From contig NZ_BSTD01000001.1 of NCBI RefSeq assembly GCF_030269325.1, positions 760,681 through 824,680 on the forward strand: 64,000 nucleotides of DNA. Direction: 5' to 3'. The position numbers were made by a program, and so were the translations under genes. Source of the stretch: Amycolatopsis sp. NBRC 101858. Its GTDB lineage: Bacteria > Actinomycetota > Actinomycetes > Mycobacteriales > Pseudonocardiaceae. Under the pieces are notes generated by a model, which saw only the letters and a program-made list of their open reading frames with translations, had not been told where the DNA came from and did no database searches. How positions within the stretch are numbered: position 1 is the first letter of the stretch; each line of letters begins with the position of its first letter. Shown here piece after piece: positions 33,297 to 37,611 of this stretch.

Positions 33297-34393
33297 CGCA
33301 CCAGCCGGAAGAAGCCGCGGACCTGCTCGACGAACAGTTCCGGCTGTTCGAGTGCGGCGAAGTGCCCGCCGACGGGCAGCTCCTCGAACCACCGCAGGTC
33401 GGTGTAGCGCTGCTCGGCCTGCCGCCGTGACGGCCGCACGATCTCCTTGGGGAACACCGAAACCCCGGCTGGAACGTCCACTGTGGACAGGTCGCGGTCG
33501 TTGTTCTCCCAGTACATCCGAGCCGACGACGCCGCCGTCGCGGTGAACCAGTAGGCGGAGATGTCGTCGAGGATCTTCTGCCGGTCGACGGCGTCCTCCG
33601 GGTGGCCCTTGTTGTCGGTCCAGGCCCAGAACTTCTCGACGATCCAGGCGGCCTGGCCGGCGGGCGAGTCGGTGAGGCCGTAGCCGAGCGTCTGCGGCCG
33701 GGTGCCCTGCTGCGCGGAGTAGCCGGCCCCGGAGCGCCGGAACTCTTCGAGGTCGGCGCGGGCCCGCCGCTCCGCGGGCGTCGGATCGTCCAGGTCCAGC
33801 CGCACGGGCGCGAAGTTGACGTGCACCCCGGCGACCCGCCCGGACCGCGCGAGGGCGTTCGTGACGGCGGCACCCCAGTCACCGCCCTGAGCGCCGTAGC
33901 GGTCGTAGCCGAGCTGCTGCATGAGCAGGTCGAAGAGCTCGGCGACCCGCGCGATCTTCAGCGCGGGTTTGTCGCTCCACCCGTACCCGGGCAGCGACGG
34001 AGCGACGACGTGGAAGGCATCGGCGGGATCGCCGCCGTACTTCGCGGGATCGGCGAGCGGCCCGAAGACGTCGAGGAATTCGAGAACGGACCCGGGCCAC
34101 CCATGGGTGAGCACGAGCGGCAGCGCATCGGCCTCGGGCGACCGCAGGTGCACGAAGTGCAGCCCGACCCCGTCGACCTCGGCCCGGAACTGCGGGAAGG
34201 CGTTGAGCCGCGCGGCGAACCCGAAGTCGTACTCCTCACCCCAGTCCCGGCAGAGTTCCCGCACGTAGGAGAGCGGAACACCCTGCGACCAGTCCCCGAC
34301 GGTCTCGGCCTCGGGCCACCGAGTCCGCCGAAGCCGCTCCCGCAGGTCCGCAACATCGGCCTCATCGAGAGACACCTGGAACGGCTTGACCAT
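33293..34393 (-). CDS. Epoxide hydrolase (alpha/beta hydrolase fold)
   Basis: The 366-residue protein starts MVKPFQVSLDEADVADLRERLRRTRWP, the N-terminal EHN domain of microsomal-type epoxide hydrolases. The core has HGWPGSVLEFLDV (oxyanion loop) and the nucleophile Asp in GAQGGDWGAAVTNALA. A catalytic tyrosine pair is expected in the lid, and GGHFAALEQPELFVEQVRGFF contains the catalytic His. GAAGGAG precedes the chosen ATG at 34393. It detoxifies or catabolises epoxides; the physiological substrate is unknown. It is convergent with the SDR gene, with overlapping stops. Confidence 0.93.
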   Translation of the reverse strand: MVKPFQVSLDEADVADLRERLRRTRWPEAETVGDWSQGVPLSYVRELCRDWGEEYDFGFAARLNAFPQFRAEVDGVGLHFVHLRSPEADALPLVLTHGWPGSVLEFLDVFGPLADPAKYGGDPADAFHVVAPSLPGYGWSDKPALKIARVAELFDLLMQQLGYDRYGAQGGDWGAAVTNALARSGRVAGVHVNFAPVRLDLDDPTPAERRARADLEEFRRSGAGYSAQQGTRPQTLGYGLTDSPAGQAAWIVEKFWAWTDNKGHPEDAVDRQKILDDISAYWFTATAASSARMYWENNDRDLSTVDVPAGVSVFPKEIVRPSRRQAEQRYTDLRWFEELPVGGHFAALEQPELFVEQVRGFFRLVR

Positions 34394-34544
34394 TTCGGGC
34401 TCCTTCAGGTGGGCCTCCCACGCTAGCGACGTCCCGGTGAAAGGATCAACTTTTATAGCGCTGACCAGCGGATCCGTTACTGGGGCCACCTGCCCGCGAG
34501 GGGGCCGCGGGATGCGCTAAGCTTTCGGAGTCGCCCAGCGATGG

Positions 34545-34617
34545 GCCCTCGTAGCTCAGGGGATAGAGCACTGCCCTCCGGAGGCAGGTGTCGCAGGTTC
34601 GAATCCTGCCGAGGGCA
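34545..34617 (+). tRNA. tRNA-Arg (anticodon CCG)
   Basis: This 73-nt cloverleaf has acceptor arms GCCCTCG/CGAGGGC, D-stem GCTC/GAGC, anticodon stem CTGCC/GGCAG with loop CTCCGGA (anticodon CCG), T-stem GCAGG/CCTGC and loop TTCGAAT. CCA is not encoded. The last 44 bases plus one downstream base recur exactly 2.9 kb away, so its 3' half was restored by an integrating element. The tRNA itself is intact. Confidence 0.97.
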
Positions 34618-34618
34618 C
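34574..34618 (+). repeat. Left attachment-site core in the tRNA-Arg gene
   Basis: A 45-bp sequence from the anticodon loop to one base past the tRNA 3' end is repeated exactly at 37473-37517. This is the usual crossover segment for tyrosine integrases that target tRNA genes. The copy here forms the functional tRNA. Confidence 0.9.
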
Positions 34619-34625
34619 TCCCACG

Positions 34626-34644
34626 GGAGCGGGAAAACCGCTCC
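34626..34644 (+). terminator. Hairpin after the tRNA-Arg gene
   Basis: GGAGCGG and CCGCTCC form a 7-bp stem with loop GAAAA nine bases after the tRNA. It lies inside the island, so it was brought in with the element and now ends the tRNA transcript. The original terminator hairpin was left at 37540-37570. Confidence 0.6.
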
Positions 34645-35050
34645 TCACCAGCGCTTTCACGCTTGAAGCGGTTCTTCCCGTCCTCCGGCTGGCTACGGCC
34701 ATTCACGGCCAAACACGGGTGTCTCTTCCCAATGCGTTCCCACGGGAACGGGCCGTGCGCCGTCGATCAGCCCTCCGAGCCGCCCTGCGGCCTGTGGCTA
34801 AGGACCTTCTCGATCCGGGCTCGGTTGCCCTCCTCCCCCCTCAAGGAACGCGGCATACACCTCGAACAGCAGGCCAACCGAGCTGAACAGCGTGGGCAGA
34901 CTTGGAAAGCGTGCTGGGTTCACGCCCTCGCAGGTTTGCGTGCTCACCGTGTTGAGCATGGATCTGACCGTAACGCCACGTCTGTGGTGTTCGACCTTGG
35001 TCACGGACCCGCAGTGAAGGGGTTATGTCTCGGCTGTCCGGAGGCTGGTT

Positions 35051-37276
35051 ATGGGTAATGGGCGACGGTGGGTGCCGTCACCGGTGACACTGGCGCTGTT
35101 GGGTCTGGTTCTTGCGCTGGTGGGCAACCTGGCCACGAACCTGATTGAGGTGGAGCAGTGGTGGTGGCGTCCGAGCGTGTTCGCCGCGCTGGGGGTACTA
35201 GCAGTCGGGGCGCTGGCACTGGAGGCGGTGCGGCACCGGGCTGAACGGGTCCGGGCGCAGTTGGGTTCAGTCGGGGTGCAGTCACAGGTGTTCGGGGCGC
35301 TCCCGCGCCAGGCGTGGCAGTGGCAGCCACGGCTGCAGGAGGAAAAGGCAGTGCGGGAGGCGCTGGGTCGGAGGGGCCGGGCCGCGCTGGTCGCGTTGCC
35401 GGGGGCACGGGGTGCAGGTAAGTCTCAGCTGGCTGCAGCGTACGCCCGCTGGTGCCTCAATCAGGGCTACGACCTGGTCGCCTGGATCAACACCGAATCC
35501 GGACCGGTCCCCGAACTAGCGGCGCTAGCGGCCTATCTCGACCTGCAGGGAGTGACGGAGACAGCGCCGGAACAGGCCGCGACGGCGGTATGCCGATGGC
35601 TGGAGCGGGACGGCCAGGCCCGGCGACTGCTGGTCTTCGACAACGTCGACGATCCGGACGCACTGCGCAAGTACCTCCCGACGACCGGGTCGACGAAGGT
35701 GCTGATCACCACCAACAGGCGAGAGTTCACCACAATGGGCGGGATCGCCGTGGTCGAGGTCAGCATGTTCACCCCCACCGAGGGAGCGGCATTCCTGGCC
35801 CGCGCAACCGGACTGGACCCCGTCGGCGATGGGGCGCGGTTAGGTGAGCAGTTGGGCTGGCTACCGCTGGGGCTGGCTCAGGCGGCAGCGTTCATCGCAC
35901 GGACCGAGATGTCCTACACCGAGTACGCGGAACTCTTGCGGCGTCAAGACCTGGATGAGACATTGCGTCAACAGGCCGGGGCCGATCACCCTGGGGTGTT
36001 GAAGGCAACCCAGCTCAGCCTGGCCGGGCTCGCCAGGGCCGACCCCAGCGGGGACACCGCCCGGCTGCTGCGCGTGCTGTCGCTGCTATCGCCCGACGGA
36101 GTCAGCCGGGACCAGCTGGTGCAGGCTGAGCAGCACCTTGGCTTGCACGGTGGCGTGTGGCCGACCATCAATGCCCTGCTCGAGGCTTCGCTGGTCACTC
36201 TCGGCGGTGATGCCCAAGCGGGCTCCTACGGCGAAGACCGCCGAGTCGTCGCGGTACACCGGCTCACTGCGTTAGTGGTCCGGTACGAGGCCAGCAGAGC
36301 TCCTGGTGATGACCAGGCGGCCGCGCTGGAGACGGCGACTCAGCTGTTGGACGCACTCACCAGCCGTTTCCCCCGTCACCAGGTCGCGCTGCGCCGCGGT
36401 GAGCTGGACGAACTCACCGCCCACCTCGACGCTGTACGCGGCCACACCGACGATCCGTCGCCGCTCCTGCTCACTCAGGCCAAGTGGATCGCCGGGCTGC
36501 TGGAGCACGCCGGTGACCTGACCCGCGCCATACCCTTGTTCGAGCAGACACTCGCCGATTGGGAGCGGATGCTGGGAGCCGAGCACCCGCACACCCTGAC
36601 CTCGCAGAGCGATCTCGCCTACGCCTATCGGTCGGTGAGACGGCTAGAAGAGGCGATCACCCTGCTCGAACAGAACGTCGCCGTAAGCGAACGGGTGCGG
36701 GGAGCCGAGCACCCGCACACGCTGATCTCACGGAACAACCTCGCCAGCACCTATGAGACCGCGGGACGGCTGGACGAAGCGATCACCCTGCACGAACAGA
36801 ACCTCGCCGATCGAGAACGAGTGCTTGGAGCCGAGCACCCGGACACCCTTATCTCACGGAACAACCTCGCCGGCGTCTATGACACCGCGGGACGGCTGGA
36901 CGAAGCGATCACCCTGCACGAACAGAACCTCGCCGATCGAGAACGAGTGCTTGGAGCCGAGCACCCGGACACCCTTATCTCACGGAACAACCTCGCCAGC
37001 GCCTACGACTCCGCGGGACGGCTGGACGAAGCGATCACCCTGAACAAACAGAACCTCGCCGATCGAGAACGAGTACTCGGAGCCGAGCACCCGGACACCC
37101 TTACCTCACGGAACAACCTCGCCAGCGCCTACCGGTCGGCGGGACGGCTGGATGAGGCAATCACCCTCCACGAACAGAACCTCGCCGCATGCGAGCGAGT
37201 GCTGGGGCCTGCTCACCCTATAACGGACACGGTCCGCGGCAATCTCACCGAAGCTCGTCGCGGCAACGGCGTCTAG
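35051..37276 (+). CDS. Membrane-anchored NB-ARC (STAND) ATPase with C-terminal TPR array
   Basis: The 741-residue protein has two N-terminal hydrophobic helices (about residues 12-32 and 40-60). An NB-ARC domain follows with Walker A GARGAGKS (118-125, K124), Walker B LLVFDNVDD (193-201), a sensor-like TKVLITTNRR and LGWLPLGLAQAA. Five full and one partial 42-residue kinesin-light-chain-type TPR repeats occupy about residues 493-741. This architecture is that of signal-transducing STAND/NLR-like proteins, several of which act in phage defence: TPRs sense, the NTPase oligomerises, and the N-terminus acts, here probably on the membrane. It is the only gene in the island. TTA codons occur at codons 264 and 408. 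Defence is inferred; a regulatory role is possible. Confidence 0.85.
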   Translation: MGNGRRWVPSPVTLALLGLVLALVGNLATNLIEVEQWWWRPSVFAALGVLAVGALALEAVRHRAERVRAQLGSVGVQSQVFGALPRQAWQWQPRLQEEKAVREALGRRGRAALVALPGARGAGKSQLAAAYARWCLNQGYDLVAWINTESGPVPELAALAAYLDLQGVTETAPEQAATAVCRWLERDGQARRLLVFDNVDDPDALRKYLPTTGSTKVLITTNRREFTTMGGIAVVEVSMFTPTEGAAFLARATGLDPVGDGARLGEQLGWLPLGLAQAAAFIARTEMSYTEYAELLRRQDLDETLRQQAGADHPGVLKATQLSLAGLARADPSGDTARLLRVLSLLSPDGVSRDQLVQAEQHLGLHGGVWPTINALLEASLVTLGGDAQAGSYGEDRRVVAVHRLTALVVRYEASRAPGDDQAAALETATQLLDALTSRFPRHQVALRRGELDELTAHLDAVRGHTDDPSPLLLTQAKWIAGLLEHAGDLTRAIPLFEQTLADWERMLGAEHPHTLTSQSDLAYAYRSVRRLEEAITLLEQNVAVSERVRGAEHPHTLISRNNLASTYETAGRLDEAITLHEQNLADRERVLGAEHPDTLISRNNLAGVYDTAGRLDEAITLHEQNLADRERVLGAEHPDTLISRNNLASAYDSAGRLDEAITLNKQNLADRERVLGAEHPDTLTSRNNLASAYRSAGRLDEAITLHEQNLAACERVLGPAHPITDTVRGNLTEARRGNGV
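36527..37273 (+). repeat. 126-bp tandem repeats encoding TPR units
   Basis: Units start at 36527, 36653, 36779, 36905, 37031 and 37157 (last partial), all exactly 126 bp. The units at 36779 and 36905 are almost identical at DNA level over more than 100 bases, while the outer ones have drifted. Such identity means recent duplication or gene conversion. Unit number may vary between strains. Not a CRISPR: there are no spacers and the frame is open throughout. Confidence 0.93.
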
Positions 37277-37472
37277 AGCGGCCGCCTGAAGCTCACCCAG
37301 CAGCACGGCGAAGGTCGAGCTCATCACGGCCTACTTCGCCTGCCAAACAGCAGCCGATGGCACGACGGAGCAGCAGCGACTTCCCAATGCGTTCTCAACC
37401 GCAGCGCCGCTTGCGACCGAGAGGCCATGTTTTGGCAGGTCAGACCTCAGGACTGGGTCACTCGGCCTGCAA

Positions 37473-37517
37473 CCCTCCGGAGGCAGGTGTCGCAGGTTCG
37501 AATCCTGCCGAGGGCAC
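37473..37517 (+). repeat. Right attachment-site core (displaced tRNA-Arg 3' half)
   Basis: This is an exact 45-bp copy of 34574-34618. It lacks the 5' half of a tRNA, so it is not a gene. It marks the original chromosomal position of the tRNA 3' end before insertion. Automatic annotators may miscall a protein here because the T-arm translates as SQVRILPRA. Confidence 0.9.
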
Positions 37518-37539
37518 CCTCTTCAGAAAACGCAAAACC

Positions 37540-37570
37540 GGCCCCTACCAACGAGAACGCGGTAGGGGCC
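37540..37570 (+). terminator. Original tRNA-Arg terminator, now downstream of the island
   Basis: GGCCCCTACC (37540-37549) pairs with GGTAGGGGCC (37561-37570), a 10-bp stem with an 11-base loop, 22 bases after the displaced tRNA end. It fits as the pre-insertion terminator of tRNA-Arg and also lies at the 3' end of the convergent MarR gene. Confidence 0.65.
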
Positions 37571-37611
37571 GAATGCGTTGCGGGCAGTCATGAACCCGTC
37601 ACGTCGGTCTC

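Follow-up and report, generated by a model that had tools for sequence, protein, structure and literature searches.

The tRNA-Arg(CCG) gene of Amycolatopsis sp. NBRC 101858 is followed by a segment of ~2.9 kb that is bounded by two copies of an attachment (att) sequence and holds one convincing gene, for a putative STAND ATPase of the NB-ARC class with C-terminal TPR units. We read this segment, with a probability that we put at about 0.87, as a cis-mobilizable element (CIME) that would have arisen when an actinomycete integrative and conjugative element (AICE) lost its interior by deletion. The window referred to throughout is the whole stretch of 64,000 nucleotides that was analysed (contig NZ_BSTD01000001.1, positions 760,681 to 824,680), and positions are those of the window. 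The evidence is comparative. A complete 29.7-kb AICE lies at the same tRNA-Arg(CCG) gene in genome G085 (G085:C11 corresponds to Amycolatopsis rifamycinica DSM 46095); the left 264 bp, the NB-ARC block and the cores of the segment align with the ends of this AICE, and a BLAST of the window against it gave no match from its middle. The features on which the argument draws are the following.

34545-34618, plus strand: tRNA-Arg(CCG), complete (ARAGORN); its 3' part is the attL core
34574-34618, plus strand: attL core, 45 bp, the last 45 bp of tRNA-Arg(CCG)
34619-34882, plus strand: L-type AICE left end, with a hairpin of its own directly after the tRNA (BLAST against G085)
34725-34739, plus strand: CTTCCCAATGCGTTC, the 15-bp repeat of the left side (106 bp inside the left core) and a putative integrase arm site
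34785-34952, minus strand: integrase 3' stub, frameshifted, covering roughly the final 60 of 477 codons (upper limit approximate)
34891-34936, plus strand: tRNA-Ser(GGA) attachment-sequence patch, 46 nt, inside the integrase stub
34952-34963, no strand: approximate deletion junction between the integrase stub and the upstream region of the NB-ARC gene
37380-37394, plus strand: right 15-bp repeat, starting 93 bp before the att copy
37473-37517, plus strand: attR core, 45 bp
37518-37572, plus strand: hairpin block resembling the left end of R-type AICEs, the second subfamily (fold and junction comparison)

Boundaries of the segment

The tRNA-Arg(CCG) gene is the sole tRNA gene that ARAGORN finds in the window. 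The original prediction, made from the letters of this DNA alone, had a perfect 45-bp direct repeat of the 3' half of the tRNA bounding the segment, and took it as the trace of integration at the tRNA 3' end. The repeat is confirmed and the integration supported: the copies at 34574-34618 and 37473-37517 are identical, with a start-to-start spacing of 2,899. That the repeat arose by chance or is a dispersed repeat was considered and rejected as having next to no probability. At three or fewer mismatches it occurs twice in the 64 kb, and two copies were seen in 0 of 100 shuffles; a BLAST search of the 11.16-Mb genome with 34500-37560 gave seven matches, the locus itself and six partial ones, with no dispersion and no further unchanged whole copy of the 45 bp (among the best 40 of 247 candidates); and the same core, with 0-2 mismatches, bounds elements in eight other genomes of the genus. 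The right 15-bp repeat stands at the same 93-bp distance from attR in the window, G008, G085, G090 and G101, with 0-2 mismatches in the repeat, and we infer that the 15-bp repeats are integrase arm sites.

Between the repeats there is, as had been said, a single cargo gene (35051-37276, 741 codons). A second gene call, with a simple and non-standard caller based on G+C by codon position, also picks this gene and prefers a start at 35120; gene lists throughout come from that same caller.

Probable derivation from an AICE

The G085 element begins with tRNA-Arg, attL, the left repeat and genes for an integrase (477 aa), a Prim-Pol and an FtsK/SpoIIIE-type protein (748 aa), and continues further on with cytosine methylase, helix-turn-helix (HTH) and NUDIX genes, the orthologue of the window gene, the right repeat and attR (the Pfam matches of its integrase and HTH proteins are just under their cut-offs). 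The orthologue is 79.9% identical in DNA over 2,167 bp and is the last gene of the element, ending 378 bp before attR; at the other end, a BLAST block that includes the upstream flank (34003-34882) is 86.8% identical to G085. By this comparison some 26.5 kb would have been deleted from a G085-type element, leaving the left end, the integrase stub, the STAND gene and the right end. What the segment keeps is both att cores, both 15-bp repeats, the broken 3' stub of the integrase gene and the right-end cargo gene; what it lacks relative to such an element is the rest of the integrase gene and the replication, transfer and regulatory genes. No integrase, replication or FtsK/TraB-type transfer gene, the marks of an AICE, is found among the open reading frames of the segment, and all are present in G085. 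The features of a CIME are there: flanking att sites are retained, recombination and conjugation genes are gone, and AICE ancestry is indicated, by a relative and not by a sister strain. The suggestion that the segment is the remnant of a larger element, one of several offered by the original prediction, is the one that fits best, since the 29.7-kb AICE of G085 shares its core and its cargo gene with the segment and has a similar left end.

On the minus strand, ~34785-34952 encodes the C-terminus of the G085-type integrase family, in two frames. The original prediction that no integrase is present stands for a working integrase but not for this frameshifted 3' piece. When the genome of NBRC 101858 was searched with the G085 integrase at E values up to 10, the only matches were the two pieces of the stub; no full-length cognate integrase that might serve as a helper was returned, and the same search gave full-length matches in G085, G090 and G008. 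The segment would therefore be immobile unless rescued. It is probably fixed now, and might be mobilized again by an AICE of matching specificity, should one integrate beside it and excise across the outer att sites.

Where the stub stops and the upstream region of the cargo gene begins can be placed only approximately. None of 500 shuffles attained the score with which 34936-35040 aligns locally to the gene-upstream region of G075; shuffles often match the scores of the other alignments (74 of 500 for the G085 upstream region, 35 of 500 for that of G091, 58 of 500 for the G085 integrase), so that the junction remains an approximation, its last integrase bases being placed by the reading frame and by an identity of 13 bases. 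Inside the stub lies the tRNA-Ser(GGA) patch (34891-34936), with integrase-like sequence on both sides, of which 36 nt are 97% identical to the tRNA-Ser of the same genome and 46 nt are 96% identical to G017:C134.

Two points weigh against so direct a derivation. The relative from which the deletion is deduced is at ~80-87% identity and is no sister strain. The stretch of 92 bp before attR, moreover, matches G023 (77%) and, by BLAST, not G085, which shares with it only the 15-bp repeat (one mismatch), besides the core. In G023:C20 the right end (77%), the core and the left end (89%) are joined, as expected of a circular form; these joined ends (L028 9736-11756) adjoin a tRNA-Leu(CAA) gene and an integrase gene with internal stops.

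The original prediction also allowed for a minimal defence or satellite island. On that reading the segment would be purpose-built, would never have had an integrase and would borrow that of a helper; its compactness and the absence of a working integrase fit, and the retained 15-bp repeats and att cores are such that a helper integrase might still act on them. The integrase stub and the AICE ends speak against it, as does the search of the genome, which found no cognate integrase, and we regard it as very improbable. The satellite proposal in particular found no backing: 15 pattern stretches in viral contigs yielded none confirmed by tblastn, the phages searched gave no match to the gene, and the segment, with its one gene, offers neither the integrase nor the phage-hijacking or packaging genes of a phage satellite. 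A phage or satellite origin was rejected on these grounds. Matches were found in 66 plasmid records, each below 60% identity and none covering 80% of the query.

The decay of AICEs to such a state is already published, for Streptomyces (PMC9513070), and the segment adds one more case. As there, empty sites and a complete AICE are found in relatives, and accretion at a tRNA-Arg gene, together with frequent pseudogenes in AICE cargo, is likewise described in the excerpted text of PMC9513070. The present case differs from the decay example of that paper in genus and insertion site, and in that a single STAND gene is left, which the complete relative also carries. The streptococcal CIMEs of PMC7563491, from the excerpt of which the definition of a CIME is taken, resemble the segment in having kept att sites and lost recombination and transfer genes, in their size of 1.2-13 kb and in standing in tandem arrays; the segment differs in that it would derive from an AICE with an FtsK-type protein and lies at tRNA-Arg. 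The structure of AICEs, and an AICE with a truncated integrase that still shows excision, are described in the excerpted text of PMC3218068. Among the titles listed from one open-licence library, none was on this gene or site. The complete AICE of G085 and the 2.9-kb remnant of the window form a before-and-after pair for the shrinkage of a conjugative element to att-flanked cargo.

The cargo gene

35051-37276, plus strand: transmembrane-NB-ARC-TPR (STAND) gene, 741 aa, open
35081-35269, plus strand: two N-terminal helices with hydrophobic stretches, residues 11-28 and 39-73 of the model
35345-35821, plus strand: NB-ARC match, residues 99-257, with P-loop GARGAGKS and Walker B LLVFDNVDD
36461-37264, plus strand: TPR array of 42-residue kinesin-light-chain-like units

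The protein had been called a membrane-anchored STAND ATPase, and its NB-ARC match, P-loop, Walker B motif and hydrophobic helices agree; we take it to be, as far as its sequence tells, a membrane-anchored STAND sensor. Its Pfam matches are NB-ARC and TPR_10/TPR_12, and an NB-ARC domain with P-loop and Walker B followed by C-terminal repeats is what defines a STAND NTPase of the NB-ARC class. The P-loop and Walker B residues are invariant across seven aligned sequences (the window protein and six homologues). On a 19-residue hydropathy scale two stretches, residues 6-34 and 39-61, score above 1.6, both within helices of the AlphaFold model, of which only the helices and the TPR fold were used (mean pLDDT 70, pTM 0.47, residues 300-411 below 50). 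The TPR part is kinesin light chain-like in sequence and in fold, varies in length among orthologues and has units up to 97% identical to one another; the adjacent 126-bp units at 36779-37030, at that identity, suggest a recent duplication or conversion. Pairwise dN/dS (the ratio of non-synonymous to synonymous substitution, by the Nei-Gojobori method) of the window gene against the orthologues of G085, G075 and G091 is, in that order, 0.15, 0.15 and 0.15 for the NB-ARC part, 0.32, 0.36 and 0.24 for the TPR part, and 0.39, 0.35 and 0.31 for the N-terminus. By these comparisons the NB-ARC part is conserved among orthologues, and the gene is open.

With the N-terminal 470 residues as query (E 1e-20), matches were found in 50 of the 80 genomes of the genus that were compared, that of NBRC 101858 included (best 20 candidates per genome). 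Close copies, at 75-100% identity, are confined to four of the 80, again counting its own, and the next best is at 37%. In all four cases the copy is the last gene ahead of an att fragment, the fragments being those of three tRNA genes (Arg, Pro(GGG) and Ile(GAT)). The G091 orthologue (G091:C1 corresponds to Amycolatopsis sp. MtRt-6) is the final gene of an integrase-bearing element, with a tRNA-Ile(GAT) fragment next. The G075 orthologue, likewise the final gene, has a tRNA-Pro(GGG) fragment after it; its island contains an integrase piece of 132 residues, and a copy of the tRNA-Arg att sequence with 13 bp of the left end precedes the gene. We read the G075 arrangement, from its sequence, as a second and different deletion that would have spared the gene. 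Homologues in other genera are at 46-58% identity, with no tRNA fragment recognized close by, and one of them (L168) looks chromosomal by eye; the gene family is therefore not confined to AICEs.

From the parts of the protein one may sketch how it would work: a trigger would be recognized by the TPR array, the NB-ARC ATPase would change state and assemble into oligomers, and the pair of helices at the N-terminus would have its effect on the membrane, most probably in response to a phage or other invader. The function would then presumably be anti-phage, and an immune role has, in our judgement, a little less than an even chance. Several points temper this reading. PADLOC returns for the window protein one generic TPR model only (E 4.9e-05). 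A single NB-ARC gene is weak evidence on its own, because the same genome has 39 NB-ARC matches, 38 of them over the cut-off (among the best 150 of 254 candidates). Pairwise dN/dS mostly reflects the time before the deletion and is no proof of present use. Third-position G+C is 0.78, against 0.91-0.96 in four neighbouring genes, which fits foreign origin or slow decay.

This last observation is also what an inert gene might show, and a decaying passenger that no longer has a function is the next reading to consider, helped by the frequent pseudogenization of AICE cargo in the excerpted text of PMC9513070. Set against it are the 741 open codons, the P-loop and Walker B shared with six homologues, the NB-ARC dN/dS of 0.15 and the different deletion in G075 that likewise left the gene open, and we hold it to be rather unlikely. 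Unlikelier still is a reading in which the protein is a component of an FxSxx-COOH peptide system and no immune sensor. NCBIfam does assign it to the FxSxx-system protein family FxSxx_TPR (FxsT; NF040586), at 353.8 bits against a curated cut-off of 300, which two orthologues also exceed (406 and 365 bits). The match omits the last ~180 of the 830 positions of the model, however, and none of eight neighbouring genes scanned has a match to an Fxs model (for one gene, among the best 25 of 209 matches; very small peptide genes would go uncalled).

The term AP-ATPase we take to mean the NB-ARC class. Proteins in which an AP-ATPase is joined to C-terminal TPRs are described, in the excerpt of PMC7159879, as effectors in actinobacterial conflict systems and linked to peptide systems; the window protein has the same order of parts, and differs from those of the excerpt in having two membrane helices and not a TIR domain, with no peptide-processing partner found nearby. 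PDB 6mfv, according to the part of its record consulted a STAND protein with a TPR sensor, is the eighth-ranking Foldseek match and shares the combination of STAND and TPR fold; identity is 14% and whole-chain superposition poor, the window model itself being of low confidence. Its conserved ATPase and variable repeats make this membrane NB-ARC/TPR protein a concrete candidate for test.

The tRNA-Arg(CCG) site in the genus

The tRNA gene was found in all 80 genomes. A second att copy accompanies it in nine and lies on another contig in two (G007 and G021), which are not judgeable; five have an integrase or integrase piece only, one a left end only and nine an R-type block only. The remaining 54 have no second att copy, no integrase piece beside the tRNA and no AICE end. 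These labels follow our own criteria, and the DNA seen beyond the tRNA ranges from ~6.1 to 39 kb, so that distant att copies can have been missed. Counted among the 54 bare sites are those of G003, where a DUF4062-STAND gene comes straight after the tRNA, and of G029, where weak integrase-like pieces lie at a distance of 4.6 kb. In six genomes (G008, G013, G034, G090, G091 and G101) integrase, transfer and primase genes accompany a second att copy at this tRNA. Comparison with relatives, the check that the original prediction had proposed, thus turned up both the integrase-bearing version (G085) and many bare sites; of the two outcomes named there as contrary, neither was observed, the same gene not being at this place in every relative and the 45-bp copy not being dispersed. 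No relative was found with the right flank of the window, beyond the hairpin block, beside the tRNA, so that no exactly matching empty site could be identified.

At this tRNA three att-bounded remnants with truncated integrases were identified. That of the window carries the STAND gene. The one in G005, a 6.8-kb att-bounded segment, has two neighbouring DUF4062-NB-ARC-TPR genes (L032 5114-10589). The third, of 4.7 kb, lies behind the AICE in G085, has an integrase stub of the other (R-type) subfamily and encodes a 555-aa AriAB-like (PARIS) protein (L098 13150-14817; PADLOC E 4.3e-58). In G092 a left end, with no integrase or second att copy in 39 kb, is followed by a BREX-type set (L110 1061-18824) with matches to BrxHI, BrxD, PglZ, BrxC, PglX and PglW. 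This is a tRNA site where the remaining cargo is several times of an anti-phage type, and one can imagine it as a depot of immune genes: AICEs would bring defence cargo and lose integrase and transfer genes, and the cargo would be retained by selection and be available for renewed capture by later AICEs that share those ends. Should later elements re-mobilize such remnants, broken elements would serve as a reservoir of immune genes and not be debris.

We consider the depot doubtful. Integrase pieces in G103, G063, G068 and G075 have no such gene called adjacent to them (judged by eye, without PADLOC); behind the attR of G090 lies an integrase piece, and the DNA seen there holds no additional att copy; PADLOC gave no match for the two G005 proteins; and NB-ARC genes are common, as the 39 matches cited above (from the best 150 of 254 candidates) attest. 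PADLOC was applied to the window protein, four proteins of three loci and six G092 proteins, leaving aside the complete or nearly complete AICEs of G008, G013, G034, G090, G091 and G101.

The right flank and a probable second element

The original prediction placed the terminator hairpin of the tRNA to the right of the second repeat, which is probably wrong. None of 200 shuffles folds as well as the hairpin at 37518-37572, and the block resembles the left end of the second AICE subfamily (G034, G091) and not the sequence after attR in G091 or G005. Junctions were scored at the 80 tRNA ends and behind 10 additional att copies; of these 90, 17 reach a score of 45, including the query block of the window itself; seven of the other 16 have a family integrase or a piece of one directly behind, and nine do not. 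In G085 and G090 the block follows the attR of the first element, as in the window. The hairpin is thus probably, on these comparisons, the left-end scar of a second, tandem AICE. The block could alternatively be a terminator common to the chromosome and the elements, and the nine bare junctions are readable in that way.

The same genome has an AICE-like element at tRNA-Arg(CCT) as well (L046 4164-16038; G000:C1:1326163-1338037). Its tyrosine integrase frame of 421 codons, the one part of it that was scanned with Pfam, is of another family, and its distal repeat has 33 of 35 bp in common with part of the tRNA-Arg(CCG) core.

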